DNA from: Candidatus Poribacteria bacterium
GTDB lineage: Bacteria; Poribacteria; WGA-4E; PCPOR2b
Direction of reading: 5' to 3'
DNA length: 59,846 nucleotides
Assembly (NCBI GenBank): GCA_022822785.1
Contig: JAJEAL010000122.1
Coordinates: 1-59,846 of the forward strand
In this document: in pieces, positions 37,088-44,716 of the stretch
How positions within the stretch are numbered: position 1 is the first letter of the stretch
How the letters are laid out: each line of letters begins with the position of its first letter
The notes under the pieces: model-generated
The model's input: the letters and a program-made list of their open reading frames with translations, nothing else
What the model was told of the DNA's origin: nothing
The model's database searches: none
Made by a program: the position numbers and the translations under genes

Positions 37088-37702
37088 ATGAGTCGAGATG
37101 AGCTGTTAGCACAATGTGGATCGCCAATAGAAGAAATGCTGTTGGAGGCACTGTATCCTCGCTTGAGGATAAAGGAACGAGATCTGTTATGTGCACAATA
37201 CGAATTTTCTATGGATCGAGTACGGAAGCCAGATTTTGCATTTCCTCAGTTACAAATTGCGATCTATTGTGATGGCTGGGAGTATCATCAGGACAAGCCT
37301 GCATTCCATCAGGATCGTTCTGAATCGAGGCTATTGCAGTCGATGGGGTGGAGGGTGTTAAGGTTCACAGGCGGTGAGATTTATAATGATGTCAATGGAG
37401 TTGTCAATGAGATCTTGGCGTTTCTTTATAAGATGCCCGAATCTTTTGATTCTAATTCTGTTGAGGCTCATAGTGGGGGATCTGAGACGAATAAGGTCAT
37501 TGTTTATCACGAGGCGGCTAACGCTTACTATGAAAAAGGCGATTATGACAACGCCCTTGATGCTTACAACCATGTTATAGAACTTGATTCTAACTTTATC
37601 CCTGCGTATTGGGGACGTGGAGCGACTTACGCGAAGATGAACAATCGTGGCAGTGCTGATGAAGACTATGAAATGGCAAAATTACTTGAGGAAAATACAT
37701 AA
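37088..37702 (+). CDS. DUF559/Vsr-like nuclease domain fused to TPR repeats
   Basis: A 204-residue protein. Residues 1-120 match the DUF559 endonuclease-like pattern: SPIEEMLLEAL, YEFSMDRVRKPDFAFPQL with the acidic active-site strand, IAIYCDGWEYHQ with a second acidic strand, and LLQSMGWRVLRFTGGEI. That is a PD-(D/E)XK/Vsr-related fold. The C-terminal 70 residues carry two TPR units (AANAYYEKGDYDNALDAYNH, then YWGRGATYAKM). Function unknown; the location next to other nuclease genes suggests a defence role. Confidence 0.75.
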   Translation: MSRDELLAQCGSPIEEMLLEALYPRLRIKERDLLCAQYEFSMDRVRKPDFAFPQLQIAIYCDGWEYHQDKPAFHQDRSESRLLQSMGWRVLRFTGGEIYNDVNGVVNEILAFLYKMPESFDSNSVEAHSGGSETNKVIVYHEAANAYYEKGDYDNALDAYNHVIELDSNFIPAYWGRGATYAKMNNRGSADEDYEMAKLLEENT

Positions 37703-37816: not shown

Positions 37817-38245
37817 ATGAACTACTATTACATCAATACCGATACCGATGCCCTCGGTTACAGCCCCCATGCGAAGTGGATTAAACATGATCGCGCATTC
37901 ACTTCAGGAGACTATCAAGAATTTGGTGAGGGGGTACTTGGAAAGCTTGAGCCGGGTGATATTCTTTTCATGTATGCTAATCAGCGCGGCGTTGTGGCTG
38001 CCGGTCGCGTTTCTGAGCCTTGGACTGGCTCGTCTTACAAGGGCGCGGATCGATTGGTATATCAGTATACGGAATATACAGAATATCGAATCCGTGTCGA
38101 CTGGTATCTCCCGGTTGTTCACAATCCGATTCATCCGGAGGATTTGAGAGAGATTATCGGTTGGACACCCCCAAGAACGTTACAGTCCATTACAGATACT
38201 AACAAAGCCAAGCGACTTCTTAGGGAAATACGGAGCCGGGCATGA
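37817..38245 (+). CDS. EVE/PUA-like domain protein, copy 1
   Basis: A 142-residue single-domain protein starting MNYYYINTDTDALGYSPHAK. KLEPGDILFMYANQRGVVAA followed by GRVSEPW is the central beta core of PUA-fold proteins (EVE/ASCH group), and LREIIGWTPPRTLQSI is a characteristic end. These domains are known to read modified bases or RNA and are often linked to restriction enzymes. AGGAAGG precedes the ATG. The stop codon overlaps the start of the membrane nuclease (ATGA). A paralogue sits at 41515-41955. The family call is from the pattern and is moderately sure. Confidence 0.7.
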   Translation: MNYYYINTDTDALGYSPHAKWIKHDRAFTSGDYQEFGEGVLGKLEPGDILFMYANQRGVVAAGRVSEPWTGSSYKGADRLVYQYTEYTEYRIRVDWYLPVVHNPIHPEDLREIIGWTPPRTLQSITDTNKAKRLLREIRSRA

Positions 38246-40533
38246 CGGGACTTCCGCCCTTAAAAAAGGAGTCACAGAAACCGAATATGGGACCCGAAGA
38301 TGTAGTAGTACAGGAAGTTGTCCGTTACTTCTCTACACCTCGATTTAAGCGATTTTCTACAGAAGAAGAACACGCAATCCAGATAGGTAGTTACAGGGGG
38401 CGAGCGGACGTTGCGCTGATTGATAAGGATGAATCACTCGCTGCTATTGTAGAGTGCAAAAGAAGCGGATACGAAGGCAGTGGACGCGACCAACTGAAAT
38501 CCTACCTCTCGGCAACGGATACACCACTCGGTGTGTTTGCTAATGAGATTGATCCCGCCAGTTGGCAATTTTACGAAAACTTAGGACAGAACCAGTTTAA
38601 GCCAATCGGGCGTTCCCGATTTGAGGCGCGGCTGCTTAAAAGAAGCGTCATTAGGACGTTGCGCGAGTCTGTGCGATTACTTTTCCGGCGACAGCGCGAG
38701 GAATCATCCCCTATCAAACCGCCTTCCCCCGAATCGTTTAATCCACCAACAAATACCCCTGATCGTCTTAACATTACCCATATAGCAGGAGACCGATCTT
38801 TGCAAAACGATAATAACACAGATCTTGATCCAAGTTTGAATGGCAACCCCTATTATAGTGAAGCCAGCGGCTTCTATTGGGCGGCAAACCACCATGGAAT
38901 CCCTGAGTGTGTACCGCAGCACGTTAAGCGCATCATCTCTGACGAGGAGCTGCGGGCACAGTTCAATCGAGAACAGCTCCAAGCAGAAATTGACGAGTTA
39001 GTTCAAGAGAAAAACGGATTGGAAGCACAGCAGCGCGAGTACGAACAGGAAATCAGACAGAGATCCCAAGAACTTCGACAAAAGAAGGAAGAGTTGGCGG
39101 GACTTGAAGTTCAGTTGGGTGCACCAACGGAAACTGAATTAAACCCATCACCTGTTGAAACTCTTGATCAAGATGACGCCAAACAGCAGCTTAACGCAGA
39201 AATAAGCCAGTTACGTGAAGAAAAAGGCAATGTGGAACAAGAGATCGAGCAGAAATCCCAGAATCTTGCACGAAAGAGGGAGGAGTTGGTAGGGCTTGAA
39301 GTTCAATTGGGTGCACCCACGGAAACCGAGTTAACCCCGGCACCCGAATCAGTCCCTCAAGTACACGCCAAAAAGTGGTACGCATGGCTGTCTCGTGTTC
39401 CTACTACAATCGTTGCGTCTGTCGCTACTGTGGTACTTATCGCTCTGGCTGTTTACCTCTTCATTTTTTATGCTTCAGCTGTCGATAAAGCCTTCTTTTT
39501 GAACGAAGATAAAATACAACAGCAGGTGGAGGAAGGCACCTATGCTGGCGTACAGGACATTGTTAATCCTAAGGCGTTGTTTATAGCATGGCAAAAAGGA
39601 GATCAAGGTAGGAATTACTTTGTCCTTTTCTTCCCTTGGGTATTCTTAGCTTTTGCACTTGCACTCGATCACTTTTGGGAATCTAGGGAAAAAGGGTGGG
39701 TAATCGGGTTGGTGGTTTTCACACTTATGTTTGATCTGTTACTTGCAATCCACATTTCGCATAAGATATATCTAGCCGAGCGTTACATCGGTATTCGGAT
39801 AGGGGAAGAAATTGGAGCATGGACACCCCTAGGCTTTGACAATCTCCTCACTATCGCGACCGTTCTTTTTTGCGGTTTTGTCGCCTCCTTATTAGTCAGC
39901 GTTCTCTATAACGTGACCCGTGACCGATGGAAGCAGGTAAAACAACTCCAACCCCGATCTAAAGAGCAGGAGATACGTGAGATTCAAATAAGAGATGAAA
40001 AGGTACAACGCGACGCCCAAATCGCTGTCTTAAGAACCGAGATGGAAAATGTAGAAGGTGAGATTGGGCCACTCCAAGGCGAGATCGGTAGACTCAACGA
40101 AAAAGTTAGAACCACTCAACAGAAAATTGATGAATGGTCGAGGGCGCAACTAGAGGATCGAATAAGAGCGGAGAGGAATCCAATTGAGGCTCGAATTGCC
40201 TGCCTAAATGTTGAGATGGAAACCCTGCAAAGTGAGATTAATCAACTCAACGACAAGGTTAGAAGCACTCAACAGCGCATTGACCGCGGTCAGACAAAAA
40301 TTGAGGAGTTGTCGGCTCTCCGAAATAAACGGGTCATCAACGGTCATCAAATGGAATTGCGGGTCAACCGATTCTTGAACGGTTGGTGCAGGTTTGTCGC
40401 AAACAGCGAAGACGGGGAAACCGATATGTCCCCCCAAATCAACCAAATTAAGCAGATCGCATACGAGACAATAAACCAATACTACGAAGGCTCACGGGAT
40501 GATTCCCCTAATCTTGACGCCACTCCGTTGTAG
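38242..40533 (+). CDS. Membrane-anchored coiled-coil protein with PD-(D/E)XK nuclease domain
   Basis: A 763-residue protein. Residues about 15-150 form an HsdR-N-like nuclease domain: IGSYRGRADVALI with D56, and AIVECKRSG with E71-x-K73. Residues 230-380 hold a coiled coil built from two similar units that each end in LEVQLGAPTETEL. Four hydrophobic segments follow (near 387-412, 453-475, 484-508 and 530-553). Then comes a second long coiled coil, again with two similar halves, and a short C-terminal domain. It is translationally coupled to the EVE-like gene upstream. I know no named system with this layout; a membrane-linked DNA-cleaving defence protein is the best guess. Confidence 0.8.
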   Translation: MTGLPPLKKESQKPNMGPEDVVVQEVVRYFSTPRFKRFSTEEEHAIQIGSYRGRADVALIDKDESLAAIVECKRSGYEGSGRDQLKSYLSATDTPLGVFANEIDPASWQFYENLGQNQFKPIGRSRFEARLLKRSVIRTLRESVRLLFRRQREESSPIKPPSPESFNPPTNTPDRLNITHIAGDRSLQNDNNTDLDPSLNGNPYYSEASGFYWAANHHGIPECVPQHVKRIISDEELRAQFNREQLQAEIDELVQEKNGLEAQQREYEQEIRQRSQELRQKKEELAGLEVQLGAPTETELNPSPVETLDQDDAKQQLNAEISQLREEKGNVEQEIEQKSQNLARKREELVGLEVQLGAPTETELTPAPESVPQVHAKKWYAWLSRVPTTIVASVATVVLIALAVYLFIFYASAVDKAFFLNEDKIQQQVEEGTYAGVQDIVNPKALFIAWQKGDQGRNYFVLFFPWVFLAFALALDHFWESREKGWVIGLVVFTLMFDLLLAIHISHKIYLAERYIGIRIGEEIGAWTPLGFDNLLTIATVLFCGFVASLLVSVLYNVTRDRWKQVKQLQPRSKEQEIREIQIRDEKVQRDAQIAVLRTEMENVEGEIGPLQGEIGRLNEKVRTTQQKIDEWSRAQLEDRIRAERNPIEARIACLNVEMETLQSEINQLNDKVRSTQQRIDRGQTKIEELSALRNKRVINGHQMELRVNRFLNGWCRFVANSEDGETDMSPQINQIKQIAYETINQYYEGSRDDSPNLDATPL

Positions 40534-40575
40534 GGAGCGTCAACAAAGGAGACAATTCAATTGAAGGGATGTTAT

Positions 40576-41463
40576 ATGGAAAAGACGAAGATTCTCGGAA
40601 TTATCATCGTTGTTTTTTTTATTTTAATAGTGGGAAGGGAATCGGACGGACAGGAATCAAAATCGTCCCCTTCCCAATCCATAAATATCGTTGTTATCCT
40701 CGATACTTCCGATCGGGTGTCTAAAGAGAGAAATCCTAATCAGGCTGCCAAAGATATCGAAATTGCTAAGGATCTCGTTAATTTTTATTACGAGGGAGCC
40801 CGTCGAAAGATGTTCAGTACCCAAAACTGTCTCGCTTTCGTTGTTCCGAATCAACCCGAGGTGCCTCCAATTTCACCAGAAATTATAAGGAATCTGAAAA
40901 TTTGGCCCACGAGGAAGGATCAGCGGATTGGGGAAAAGGCGTTTACACAAATGAAGGAGGACTTGCTCACGGCAATTGATGAGTTATACCAACTGCTTGA
41001 AAAGCAGAAAGAATTTACAGGCTCGGATATTTGGAAGTGGTTTCGGGCAAGCGGAGAAGCATATTTAAAGAAAGATATGCAGAACTACGTTATCTGTATC
41101 TCAGATGGCTACCTCGATTTTAACAAGAAGATTCAAGATAAACGTCCCAAGATAGGCAAAAAAACGAGCTATATTCCCTATATTCAGGTCGTTCAATTTC
41201 GCAAGGATCCCAACTGGGAGTCGAGATTTGACGGCGAAGGACACGGCTTATTGGAAATTGGGAAAGATTTTAGTTCTTACAATGTGAGGTTCTTAATGGT
41301 TGAGATCAAACTCCGGCACATGCTTGATCTGCTTATTCTTGAAAAATACTGGCGAACATGGCTTGAATCAATGGGGATCAATGATTCGGAGTTTATGGAG
41401 GCGCAGCCCGACCCGCAAATCGTGAAAGAGAAAATTGCGGCGTTTGTCTCGCAGAACCGGTAA
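40576..41463 (+). CDS. Exported VWA-like protein
   Basis: A 295-residue protein with an N-terminal signal anchor (ILGIIIVVFFILIVG). SINIVVILDTSDRVSKERNP resembles the first strand and MIDAS motif (D-x-S-x-S/R) of von Willebrand A domains. Later NYVICISDGYLDFNKKI looks like the VWA strand with the ISDG metal-site aspartate. The remainder is helical and charged. I start at ATG 40576 behind GAAGGGATG; a TTG at 40561 is also in frame. It is the gene following the membrane nuclease by 42 bp, so the two may work together at the envelope. Confidence 0.65.
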   Translation: MEKTKILGIIIVVFFILIVGRESDGQESKSSPSQSINIVVILDTSDRVSKERNPNQAAKDIEIAKDLVNFYYEGARRKMFSTQNCLAFVVPNQPEVPPISPEIIRNLKIWPTRKDQRIGEKAFTQMKEDLLTAIDELYQLLEKQKEFTGSDIWKWFRASGEAYLKKDMQNYVICISDGYLDFNKKIQDKRPKIGKKTSYIPYIQVVQFRKDPNWESRFDGEGHGLLEIGKDFSSYNVRFLMVEIKLRHMLDLLILEKYWRTWLESMGINDSEFMEAQPDPQIVKEKIAAFVSQNR

Positions 41464-41514
41464 TCCCTTGATCTAATAGGACTAAATAAGAATATGCAAT
41501 TCGCAGAGGAACAC

Positions 41515-41955
41515 ATGAACTACTACTACATCAACACCGATACCGATGCCCTCCGTTACAGTCCCCATGCGAAGTGGATTAAACACAACCGTGCGTTTAC
41601 TTCGGGATATATACCAGACGACTATAAGACCTACGGCGAGCAAGTCCTTGGAAAACTCAGCCCCGGCGATATGCTTTTCATGTATGTCAACGGGTGCGGC
41701 GTTGTGGCTGCGGGGTGGGTCTGCGAGTTTTGGGATCGCTGCGCTTACAGGGGCAGCGACCGGTTGATATATCAGGATACCCCCTATACAGAATATCGGA
41801 TCGGCGTTGACTGGTGCCGCAACATTACGGACAATCCGATGCCCCCAACGGATTTGAGAGAGATTATTGGCTGGACACCCCTACGAACCCTGCAGCGGAT
41901 TAGAGATGCTGACAAAGCCGAGCGACTCTTTGAGGAAATACGGGACCGGACGTAA
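41515..41955 (+). CDS. EVE/PUA-like domain protein, copy 2
   Basis: A 146-residue paralogue of 37817-38245 with the same start (MNYYYINTDTDALRYSPHAK) and end (LREIIGWTPLRTLQRI). A few residues are inserted (YIPDDYKTYGEQ) and there are more cysteines. Its GAGGAACAC ribosome binding site precedes the ATG. The two copies flank the nuclease and VWA-like genes, so the group of four reads like one module. Confidence 0.7.
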   Translation: MNYYYINTDTDALRYSPHAKWIKHNRAFTSGYIPDDYKTYGEQVLGKLSPGDMLFMYVNGCGVVAAGWVCEFWDRCAYRGSDRLIYQDTPYTEYRIGVDWCRNITDNPMPPTDLREIIGWTPLRTLQRIRDADKAERLFEEIRDRT

Positions 41956-42048: not shown

Positions 42049-43059
42049 ATGCTCCTTGGCAAAAGTCCTGCCATGCAAACCATTCACACAACTATCCACC
42101 AACTCAGCAACAACAGCAAGGGGACAGTTTTGATTATGGGTGAAACCGGTGTCGGTAAAGAATTGGTCGCCCAAGCCATTCATTTTGGAGGACACCAAGC
42201 GTCAAAACCGTTTATCCCTGTCAATTGCGGTGCGACTCCCTCCGCACTCTGGGAGTCCACTTTTTTTGGCCATGTGCAAGGTGCCTTCACCGGAGCGACA
42301 GGGGATCATAAAGGCTATTTTGAAACAGCCGATGGCGGAACGCTGTTTCTCGACGAAATTGGCGATATGCCAATCGAAACCCAAGCTAAACTCCTCCGCG
42401 TGCTCGAGGGTGAGGCCATCACGCCGCTCGGTGCAACGGTAGGCAAAAAGGTGGATATCCGAGTGCTATCAGCCACCAATGCGGACATCCCAGCGAAGAG
42501 GGCAGCCGGACTGTTTCGATCAGATCTATACTATCGCTTGGCTGGCACGGTGATTTGGATACCACCGCTACGCGAGCGAACAGAGGATATTCCCCTCATT
42601 GCTGAATACTACTTGAGTCAGTTTGCGACTCAAATGCAGGTGCCAACTCCACCATTGACGCCTGAAGCCTCGGCGGCTTTGGAAACATACCCCTTCCCGG
42701 GCAATGTACGCGAACTGATAAACATCATCGAAGGTGCCGTGATTGTAAGTGAAGGCGCAGCGATCGAACCCAAACATCTCCATTTTGAACCCCCTTCCGT
42801 TGACCTACCTTCCTCTCCAGTAACACAAATTGATGAACCCCGCCCGTCAAATGCCCCTGATTCTGTTCCCCACCCGGACGCTGAGACAGATATGAGTGAA
42901 GCCCCCTTCCTACCATTGAACGAGGCTTTGACCCGTTATGAACGGCAGTATCTCTGTCAGGTGTTGGAATGGACAGGTGGGAATAAGGCAGCAGCGGCGC
43001 GTCTGTTGAATATCCCCCGGCGCACCCTTTATCGCAAATTAACCAAGTACCATTTGTGA
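42049..43059 (+). CDS. Sigma-54-dependent transcription activator
   Basis: A 336-residue bacterial enhancer-binding protein that lacks an N-terminal sensor domain. GETGVGKE (residues 31-38) is Walker A, GAFTGA (78-83) the sigma-54-contacting loop, GGTLFLDEIGD (96-106) Walker B, and FRSDLYYRLAG the arginine-finger region. The C-terminus is a Fis-type helix-turn-helix (GGNKAAAARLLNIPRRTLYR). Without a sensor domain it is probably controlled by its level or by a partner. A strong sigma-54 promoter lies 218 bp downstream of its stop, before the cytochrome gene. Confidence 0.93.
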   Translation: MLLGKSPAMQTIHTTIHQLSNNSKGTVLIMGETGVGKELVAQAIHFGGHQASKPFIPVNCGATPSALWESTFFGHVQGAFTGATGDHKGYFETADGGTLFLDEIGDMPIETQAKLLRVLEGEAITPLGATVGKKVDIRVLSATNADIPAKRAAGLFRSDLYYRLAGTVIWIPPLRERTEDIPLIAEYYLSQFATQMQVPTPPLTPEASAALETYPFPGNVRELINIIEGAVIVSEGAAIEPKHLHFEPPSVDLPSSPVTQIDEPRPSNAPDSVPHPDAETDMSEAPFLPLNEALTRYERQYLCQVLEWTGGNKAAAARLLNIPRRTLYRKLTKYHL

Positions 43060-43066
43060 GCAAGGC

Positions 43067-43129
43067 GTGTGCCAAAAAAGGGCAGGTGGTGTGACAAAAT
43101 CAGACATATAGTGCCCTTTCTTGGCACAC
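43067..43129. promoter_or_regulatory. Long inverted repeat, terminator or activator-binding site
   Basis: GTGTGCCAAAAAAGGGCA at 43067-43084 pairs with TGCCCTTTCTTGGCACAC at 43112-43129 with one mismatch, leaving a 27-nt loop. It starts 8 bp after the stop of the sigma-54 activator gene and ends about 148 bp before the -24 element at 43277. It could end the activator transcript, but the large loop and missing T-run favour a binding site for the Fis-type activator. Confidence 0.55.
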
Positions 43130-43276
43130 TATCCCCTCCTGAATGCGGTGCCTATTTATCCCCTTAACAAAAAAAATAAAGGTGGTGCGGTAGTCGCTTT
43201 GATTCAGTCACTGCAAGGATCTCAAGCGTCAGGTCGCGGCATGGTGATGACAGAAACCGGGGCCAAAAAGGAGAGG

Positions 43277-43291
43277 TGGCACAGGAATTGC
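43277..43291 (+). promoter_or_regulatory. Sigma-54 (-24/-12) promoter
   Basis: TGGCAC-AGGAA-TTGC matches the sigma-54 consensus TGGCAC-N5-TTGC at all ten defined positions. Transcription would start about 12 bp further on, near 43303, giving a leader of roughly 45 nt before the cytochrome gene start at 43349. The neighbouring upstream gene is a sigma-54 activator, which supports the call. Confidence 0.85.
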
Positions 43292-43348
43292 CCATTACGA
43301 GTTCAGTTGCTATTTGAATTACGCGCCATAGAGGAGGTATTCTCATTG

Positions 43349-44716
43349 ATGAAGCTAATCTTTCCTTTTCTGATTTTAGCCCTAATCGGTTTGGTACTAC
43401 GGTTGGCATCAAGTTCCCAATCCATGCGCCCAACCGAAGTTGAATCTGGTCCCAACCTGACGCTGCTAATCAGTGGAGCGGAGTTGGGGTATCTTGAGCC
43501 TTGTGGTTGTGCAGAAGGTCAACTCGGTGGATTTCCCAGACGAGACAGCGTGATTCAACAGCTTGCGCTCAAAGGCAAAACGCTCCTGCCGGTTGCCAAC
43601 GGCAATTTGATTGACGATGCGAGTCGCCAATCGGAGTTAAAGGCAGAGATTGGATTTGCTGCTCTAAAAGAGATGGGCTACGTCGCCTATAACGTTGGCG
43701 AGCGAGATTTGCTGCTGGGGATAGAGCGATTGAAGTATTTACAAAGGGCGTCAGGGATTCCATTTCTGTCCGCGAATCTGTTTCACGGAGAAAACCGGGT
43801 CTTTCAGCCCTTTGTGCTTCACACAGTCAATCTCCAAGGCAATCAGATACAAGTAGCAATTATAGGGATTCTCTCCCAATCGTTTGAAGTTCACGTTGAA
43901 AATGCAGGCGTGGGTTTGAGATTGGAAGATCCAATTATTGTGCTGAGGGGTTTAGTGGAGAAGTTGGATCAAGCCACGGATCTTATCGTTTTGTTGGCTC
44001 ATGCAGATTTCACTGAATCGGAAGGGTTGGCGTCCACCTTCCCTCAAATTGATGTCGTTGTCTCTGGACATGAGGGGGAGGAGTTGCACGAAACTCCGGT
44101 TTTCATTGAGAATACCGTACTATTGAATACTGGAACGAAGGGCAAAGCCTTCGGACAACTTGATATCCGATGGAGTGACGATAAAGCGATTCCAGATTAT
44201 GAATTTCAAGCCCTGTCCCTTTCGGAACGCCTTCCTGATTCACCACGGATGGTTGAGTTGCTGACGTTGTATCAACAGATGTTGTCCGCTGAAAACCTAT
44301 CAGTCGATTTGGAGCGCGAATCCCCCGCGACGGGCGGGATGTATGTGGGAAGCGCGAGTTGCAAGGGGTGCCACGCTGAAGCTTATGCAATCTGGAAGAG
44401 AAGTAAACACGCCCACGCTTATGAAACGCTAGTTTCGCACGGACACGCCGCGGACCCGGAGTGTTTGACATGCCACACAGTGGGGTTCGGATTTCAGACC
44501 GGGTTTGTCAACATGGAGACAACACCTAATCTGCCGGATGTGGGGTGTGAAAACTGTCACGGTGTCGGCGGCAATCACGCGAAGAATCCGCAAAAAGGGT
44601 ATGGACAAGCTACCAAAGCGGATTGCTTGACGTGCCATACGGCGCAAAATAGTCCGAAATTCGATTACAAGTTCTATCTTCCGAAGATTCGGCATTGGAA
44701 AGGAGACAAAACATGA
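43349..44716 (+). CDS. Phosphoesterase-like domain fused to a tetraheme cytochrome c
   Basis: A 455-residue exported protein with a signal sequence (KLIFPFLILALIGLVLRLAS). Residues about 30-310 resemble UshA-type metallophosphoesterases (NLTLLISGAELGYLEPCGCA, YNVGERDL, VVVSGHEGEELHETP). The C-terminal region has four CxxCH heme sites at C338 (CKGCH), C372 (CLTCH), C400 (CENCH) and C426 (CLTCH), as in cytochrome c554-type proteins. The ATG 43349 follows GGAGG at 11 nt; the TTG before it is possible. Upstream in-frame codons contain the sigma-54 promoter and are not coding. Its stop overlaps the next gene (ATGA). Confidence 0.88.
   Translation: MKLIFPFLILALIGLVLRLASSSQSMRPTEVESGPNLTLLISGAELGYLEPCGCAEGQLGGFPRRDSVIQQLALKGKTLLPVANGNLIDDASRQSELKAEIGFAALKEMGYVAYNVGERDLLLGIERLKYLQRASGIPFLSANLFHGENRVFQPFVLHTVNLQGNQIQVAIIGILSQSFEVHVENAGVGLRLEDPIIVLRGLVEKLDQATDLIVLLAHADFTESEGLASTFPQIDVVVSGHEGEELHETPVFIENTVLLNTGTKGKAFGQLDIRWSDDKAIPDYEFQALSLSERLPDSPRMVELLTLYQQMLSAENLSVDLERESPATGGMYVGSASCKGCHAEAYAIWKRSKHAHAYETLVSHGHAADPECLTCHTVGFGFQTGFVNMETTPNLPDVGCENCHGVGGNHAKNPQKGYGQATKADCLTCHTAQNSPKFDYKFYLPKIRHWKGDKT

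Follow-up and report, generated by a model that had tools for sequence, protein, structure and literature searches.

A putative envelope-anchored nuclease cassette with two alternative nuclease folds and an exported VWA-fold partner in Poribacteria

A nuclease domain, a core with four transmembrane (4-TM) helices and coiled coils, and an exported VWA-fold protein form a well-supported three-part unit in the Poribacteria. Judged by analogy with known systems, together with its conserved active sites and evolutionary pattern, this unit is best read as an envelope-anchored nuclease immune cassette, a variant of membrane-tethered nuclease defence, to which we assign a probability of roughly 60%. 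Neither the core nor the VWA partner matches a curated family in the libraries searched, such that the cassette points to two protein families that these libraries do not cover, and no description of the gene set was found in the literature.

Gene content of the window

The window (the whole 59,846-nucleotide stretch of DNA analysed here) is contig C17 of a Poribacteria genome. An earlier sequence-only reading had proposed a four-gene defence module in it, and all ORFs named there are present. The features discussed below are as follows.

37088..37702, + strand: DUF559/MTES_1575 (Vsr-like fold) and TPR protein; neighbour
37817..38245, + strand: PUA/EVE-like small protein, copy 1; neighbour, probably outside the conserved system
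38242..38691, + strand: PD-(D/E)XK (HSDR_N_2) nuclease domain, residues 1-150 of a 763-aa protein; catalytic D56, E71 and K73
38692..40533, + strand: membrane chassis (core) of the 763-aa protein; linker, coiled coil 1, four TM helices, coiled coil 2 and a conserved C-terminal helix region with a GW-x-R motif
40561..41463, + strand: exported VWA-fold protein; probable start 40576, TTG at 40561 also possible; N-terminal hydrophobic export segment
41494..41955, + strand: PUA/EVE-like small protein, copy 2; probable start 41515; neighbour, probably outside the conserved system

The D/E-x-K nuclease domain, duplicated coiled coils and four membrane segments that had been read into the 763-aa protein (ORF 38242-40533) were borne out by Pfam, AF2 modelling and hydropathy. 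Its N-terminus matches HSDR_N_2 (PF13588, E 2e-9) with 37.9 bits against a Pfam cut-off of 25, which places it among PD-(D/E)XK domains, and D56, E71 and K73 do not vary among the seven PD-(D/E)XK relatives aligned, so that the nuclease residues singled out earlier are indeed conserved in homologues. The AF2 model, of moderate confidence (mean pLDDT 67.7), contains two long helical coiled-coil stretches, and hydropathy places the TM segments at residues 390-408, 460-478, 487-505 and 536-554. With four TMs, the nuclease and the C-terminal coiled coil of the core are predicted to lie on the same side of the membrane. The charges beside the outer TMs of the window protein favour the cytoplasmic side, a signal that is weaker in some relatives; hydropathy and charge together thus predict inner-membrane anchoring with a cytoplasmic nuclease.

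The core, defined as the region with homologues at other loci (residues about 180-755), is conserved at all core loci found. Profile searches with its TM region gave no Pfam or PDB relative, the PDB search returning nothing useful, and Foldseek with the core model returned coiled-coil look-alikes only. DUF4407 was rejected as a name for the core, its matches being weak (E about 0.01-0.02), and matches of the core to PADLOC LmuB, JetC and PbeC fall in the coiled coils and were taken as composition.

The exported VWA-like protein that had been noted next to the nuclease also held up. ORF 40561-41463 starts with a hydrophobic export segment (hydropathy), its AF2 model has a VWA fold (mean pLDDT 87.8), and the top Foldseek matches are VWA-fold chains, namely TFIIH subunits and integrin I domains (best E 3.4e-4). 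It has no Pfam match, and a profile of its family found nothing useful in the PDB. Conserved motifs in the family alignment are DxSDR, GxDIWxWF, SDGYLxF and WxxWLxxxGI. The MIDAS is partly altered, and ligand binding is uncertain because the DxSxS metal site has changed to DxSDR.

Window positions 43121-44703, on the right flank of the locus, recur with 87% identity elsewhere in the same genome (C124). The DNA on this side is thus duplicated, for which reason a synteny test on it was uninformative. A sigma-54 activator AAA+HTH protein (window 42049-43059) also lies on this side; it has no sensor domain, begins directly at the AAA domain and aligns with the C-terminal portion of the PADLOC model RtcR_PspF2 (CARF-AAA-HTH; E 1e-97).

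Conservation and distribution of the cassette

The order nuclease, core, VWA is kept at every usable Poribacteria locus. A VWA gene lies downstream of the core in all other Poribacteria neighbourhoods with downstream DNA present; at L023 and L040 the contig ends at or just after the core, so the downstream gene is not seen there. Full-length core and full-length VWA occur in an identical set of 19 genomes (59-genome set, counted by hand), and a VWA match was obtained in 25 of the 85 genomes of the phylum, some of them holding fragments only. A scan of genome contigs gave a single close relative. Phages, viral contigs and further plasmids yielded no relatives beyond the Runella protein described below, and the case for mobility of the cassette is weak, as close relatives were absent from the phages, the viral contigs and most of the plasmids searched. 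Defence-island context is likewise weak, since most neighbours of the cassette are ordinary, mostly metabolic genes.

Two nuclease folds on one core

The nuclease part of the cassette comes in three arrangements. A fused PD-(D/E)XK domain is found in the window and at L021, L022, L027 and L028 (the last with a broken frame), and a fused T5orf172 GIY-YIG domain at L023-L026, L036 and L037. Loci without a fused nuclease (L029-L035, L038-L040 and L077-L079) have a separate T5orf172 ORF that abuts or overlaps the core. Pfam matches to T5orf172 range from E 1e-15 to 1e-18 in the fused versions and reach 7e-17 and 1e-16 in two of the separate GIY-YIG ORFs; the HSDR_N_2 matches have E 2e-9 and 7e-10. 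The GIY-YIG positions (VYI, K[IV]G, a following R, E and H, and EFF) show conservation across 19 members, and SNIPE homologues share them. Given the conserved catalytic residues, both nuclease types look active.

In the core tree, which has mostly strong support, the PD-(D/E)XK rows do not form one group and a T5orf172 (GIY-YIG) clade is nested among them, requiring at least two changes of nuclease. Pairwise comparisons give the same picture: L022 and L025 are 66% identical in the core although their N-domains are unrelated (23%, chance level), and the reverse holds for L022 and L027, whose N-domains are 63% identical and cores only 42%. Sequence comparison thus indicates that two unrelated nuclease folds replace each other on one core.

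Related domains were also seen outside the cassette arrangement. A further small, GIY-YIG-looking ORF (L031:1583-2044, G003; by eye) lies directly upstream of a separate T5orf172 gene. The HSDR_N-like PD-(D/E)XK domain is common in other ORFs (50 of 59 related genomes), for example in the coiled-coil proteins L017 and L020, and many further loci are broken by stops; to judge from these sequences, the domain resembles a mobile module within the phylum.

Gain, loss and replacement at fixed chromosomal sites

At three chromosomal sites, both flanks match between loci that carry different cassette versions (flank comparison):

Site A: L022 PD-(D/E)XK, L025 GIY-YIG, L027 PD-(D/E)XK; decayed L076 and L083
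Site B: L024 and L026 fused GIY-YIG; L033, L034 and L078 separate GIY-YIG
Site C: L028 PD-(D/E)XK, L029 separate GIY-YIG

Almost every genome of the genus has both flanking genes of site A, and most of these genomes lack the cassette there. The gap between them is 286-409 bp in 14 genomes, and occupied gaps measure 6.3 kb (G039), 4.2 kb (G048) and 5.6 kb (G082), all values being computed by hand; in G052 the site holds a PD-(D/E)XK remnant (L125). A fixed site at which genes are gained, lost and replaced is in keeping with conflict-type selection, without proving immunity. At site B the cassette is adjoined by a TmtA-like defence gene (PADLOC). The large TmtA-like proteins beside the site B cassette (L033:4031-7735 and L026:4771-8526, PADLOC E about 1e-63) have a type IV restriction-like C-terminal match.

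A core-VWA fusion in Runella

The single relative found outside the Poribacteria is encoded on plasmid pSP2_2 of Runella sp. SP2 (L048:8591-10705), where core and VWA are fused in one 704-aa protein (VWA part 24% identity, E 6e-9; core part 22% identity, E 1e-4). A fifth TM lies between the two parts, and the protein has no nuclease domain of its own. The fusion supports both a physical link between core and VWA and the position of the VWA domain outside the membrane. Its gene lies within a type III-B CRISPR-Cas locus, with a WYL regulator on one side and a PrimPol gene on the other, and cas2 and cas1 following. This CRISPR context is one observation; it makes the fusion a candidate for a membrane-bound accessory protein of CRISPR. 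Earlier work has noted vWA and transmembrane genes linked to CRISPR (PMC10910872).

The flanking small proteins are probably not part of the cassette

The sequence-only reading had combined the membrane nuclease and VWA-like genes with the two flanking small ORFs, taken for EVE proteins that read modified bases and guide the nuclease to modified phage DNA. In favour of this reading, the two small proteins, 70% identical to each other, flank the nuclease/VWA pair, and copy 1 is coupled to the nuclease gene as described earlier, with the ATG of the 763-aa ORF overlapping its stop in an ATGA, the position that a separate GIY-YIG gene occupies at other loci. The EVE identity nevertheless amounts to a resemblance. 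Pfam gave no match for the small proteins at E<=1, a profile of their family found no credible PDB relative, and the EVE model PF01878 matches nothing in this genome at E<=10, the same model giving matches in 7 of 14 control genomes. Relatives of the EVE-like protein occur in 3 of 59 related genomes; at L047 the gene is close to a pair that by eye looks RelE/XRE-like, and at L043 it adjoins the gene of an uncharacterised 216-aa protein. An EVE-like gene adjoins the nuclease/core in this window only, and even L030 (contig C116), where this genome has its second core/VWA copy, lacks one. The full set of four genes was found at no other core locus. As a conserved unit the four-gene module is refuted by this absence, which was the test that the sequence-only reading had set itself, and nothing supports the reading of modified bases; we regard a module of this kind as very improbable. 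The part of the membrane DNA-cutting module first proposed that survives, and gains support as a defence-like cutter, is the membrane nuclease and VWA-like pair, which is constant in Poribacteria and has conserved catalytic residues and a replaceable nuclease.

The adjoining DUF559 nuclease/TPR gene is as had been described (Pfam DUF559 5e-8, MTES_1575 4e-10, TPR_11 4e-11), and tblastn found no match to it in the scanned neighbourhoods of other core loci.

Proposed function and alternative explanations

As an immune cassette, the system would work as follows. The cytoplasmic nuclease domain would be held at the inner membrane by the 4-TM protein with its two cytoplasmic coiled coils, and the exported VWA protein, lying outside the inner membrane, would be able to touch the two non-cytoplasmic loops of this chassis. 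The VWA protein might sense or bind an envelope event, be it a docking phage, the injection of DNA or damage to the cell wall, and the 4-TM/coiled-coil chassis would then relay this to the nuclease, which would cut DNA at the membrane, most likely incoming DNA. Of these steps, we infer VWA sensing, activation, DNA as the substrate and phage or mobile DNA as the target. A more specific proposal, to which we give somewhat less than even odds, is that an exported VWA receptor signals via an unrecognised 4-TM coiled-coil family to an interchangeable nuclease blade, that two unrelated folds have been swapped at fixed sites, and that type III CRISPR-Cas in Bacteroidota has recruited a fused form without a blade as an accessory.

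The nuclease might instead be directed against the host. In a Zorya-like abortive response, the VWA protein would sense cell-wall or envelope damage and the tethered nuclease would cut the host chromosome, stopping the infected cell. The logic of the parts is the same (envelope sensor, long-helix membrane protein and exchangeable nucleases; PMC11890865) and the predicted topology is compatible, but the core has no MotA/ExbB match in Pfam or PADLOC, which speaks against an ion motor, and a nuclease fused to a membrane protein is better placed for cutting at the point of DNA entry; we consider this response unlikely. Still less likely is a barrier to conjugative plasmids or natural transformation rather than phage, in which the tethered nuclease would degrade DNA arriving from the conjugation or uptake machinery. 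To judge from the topology, a membrane position and nucleases would suit any entering DNA, yet no competence or conjugation genes are linked to the cassette in its neighbourhoods (by eye).

Between these two in probability, and only just below the abortive response, we would place a non-immune role in envelope housekeeping or stress signalling, with the nuclease-fold domain serving as an adaptor or processing cellular RNA or DNA. The mostly metabolic genes near the sites would suit such a role, and coiled coils and VWA domains are common scaffolds. However, two unrelated nuclease folds have both kept their catalytic residues, and patchy presence (25 of 85 genomes, including fragments) with gain, loss and exchange at fixed sites is unlike housekeeping.

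Comparison with known systems

The PD-(D/E)XK domain of the window version belongs with the type I restriction HsdR N-terminal domain/HSDR_N_2 family. The cassette differs from type I restriction in carrying the domain on a membrane protein, with no helicase, methyltransferase or specificity subunit.

A VWA domain in a conflict-type gene set recalls the vWA-MoxR-VMAP conflict systems (PMC7159879). No MoxR or VMAP gene was recognised by eye among the listed neighbours of the cassette. The VWA proteins of vWA-MoxR-VMAP systems and of CRISPR-linked vWA sets are cytoplasmic, whereas that of the cassette is predicted to be exported.

In Zorya, sensing at the envelope is coupled to nucleases that can be exchanged (PMC11890865), and the cassette resembles ZorAB with ZorCD or ZorE in its proposed envelope sensing, in a membrane protein with long cytoplasmic helices and in exchangeable nucleases. 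It differs in having a VWA protein in place of the peptidoglycan-binding MotB-like component. Core proteins match neither ZorA (PADLOC) nor MotA_ExbB (Pfam), and a ZorB-type MotB/OmpA-like partner was not found, the exported partner having a VWA fold and no Pfam match; membership of Zorya is ruled out by the missing MotA/MotB match. ZorG of Zorya III is a DUF2894 protein, not a VWA protein (PMC8565338).

Among the closest known systems is SNIPE (PD-Lambda-1), a membrane nuclease which cleaves phage DNA while it is being injected; one protein carries its only TM, DUF4041 and the C-terminal nuclease (PMC13190303). SNIPE has its nuclease anchored in the membrane on the cytoplasmic side, an arrangement that hydropathy and charge predict for the cassette, and the SNIPE-type GIY-YIG nuclease, of the same T5orf172 family, is present in the GIY-YIG versions elsewhere and not in the PD-(D/E)XK version of the window. 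Unlike SNIPE, the cassette has an N-terminal or separate nuclease, four TMs, a VWA partner and an alternative PD-(D/E)XK nuclease. Pfam found no DUF4041 in cassette proteins, and the PADLOC PD-Lambda-1 model matched the separate GIY-YIG parts only at its positions about 349-449, which are the nuclease. These separate proteins also match PDC-S57, a candidate PADLOC family (to E 1.8e-33). The absence of DUF4041 and the different layout rule out SNIPE membership, and full-length SNIPE homologues occur in the same phylum separately from the cassette (L091, E 4.5e-169; L096, E 7.3e-158; PADLOC). Proteins of SNIPE layout in Poribacteria (L091, L092, L094, L096 and L097) have an N-terminal TM or coiled coil, a middle domain and a C-terminal T5orf172.

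If the immune reading is true, the cassette would be a second, independent solution for keeping a nuclease at the membrane to meet entering DNA, one that includes an outside sensor of its own. It would also offer a natural experiment in which one chassis has received different cutting domains. The switching-on of a membrane nuclease by injection would then become testable through a separate sensor gene, which SNIPE lacks.
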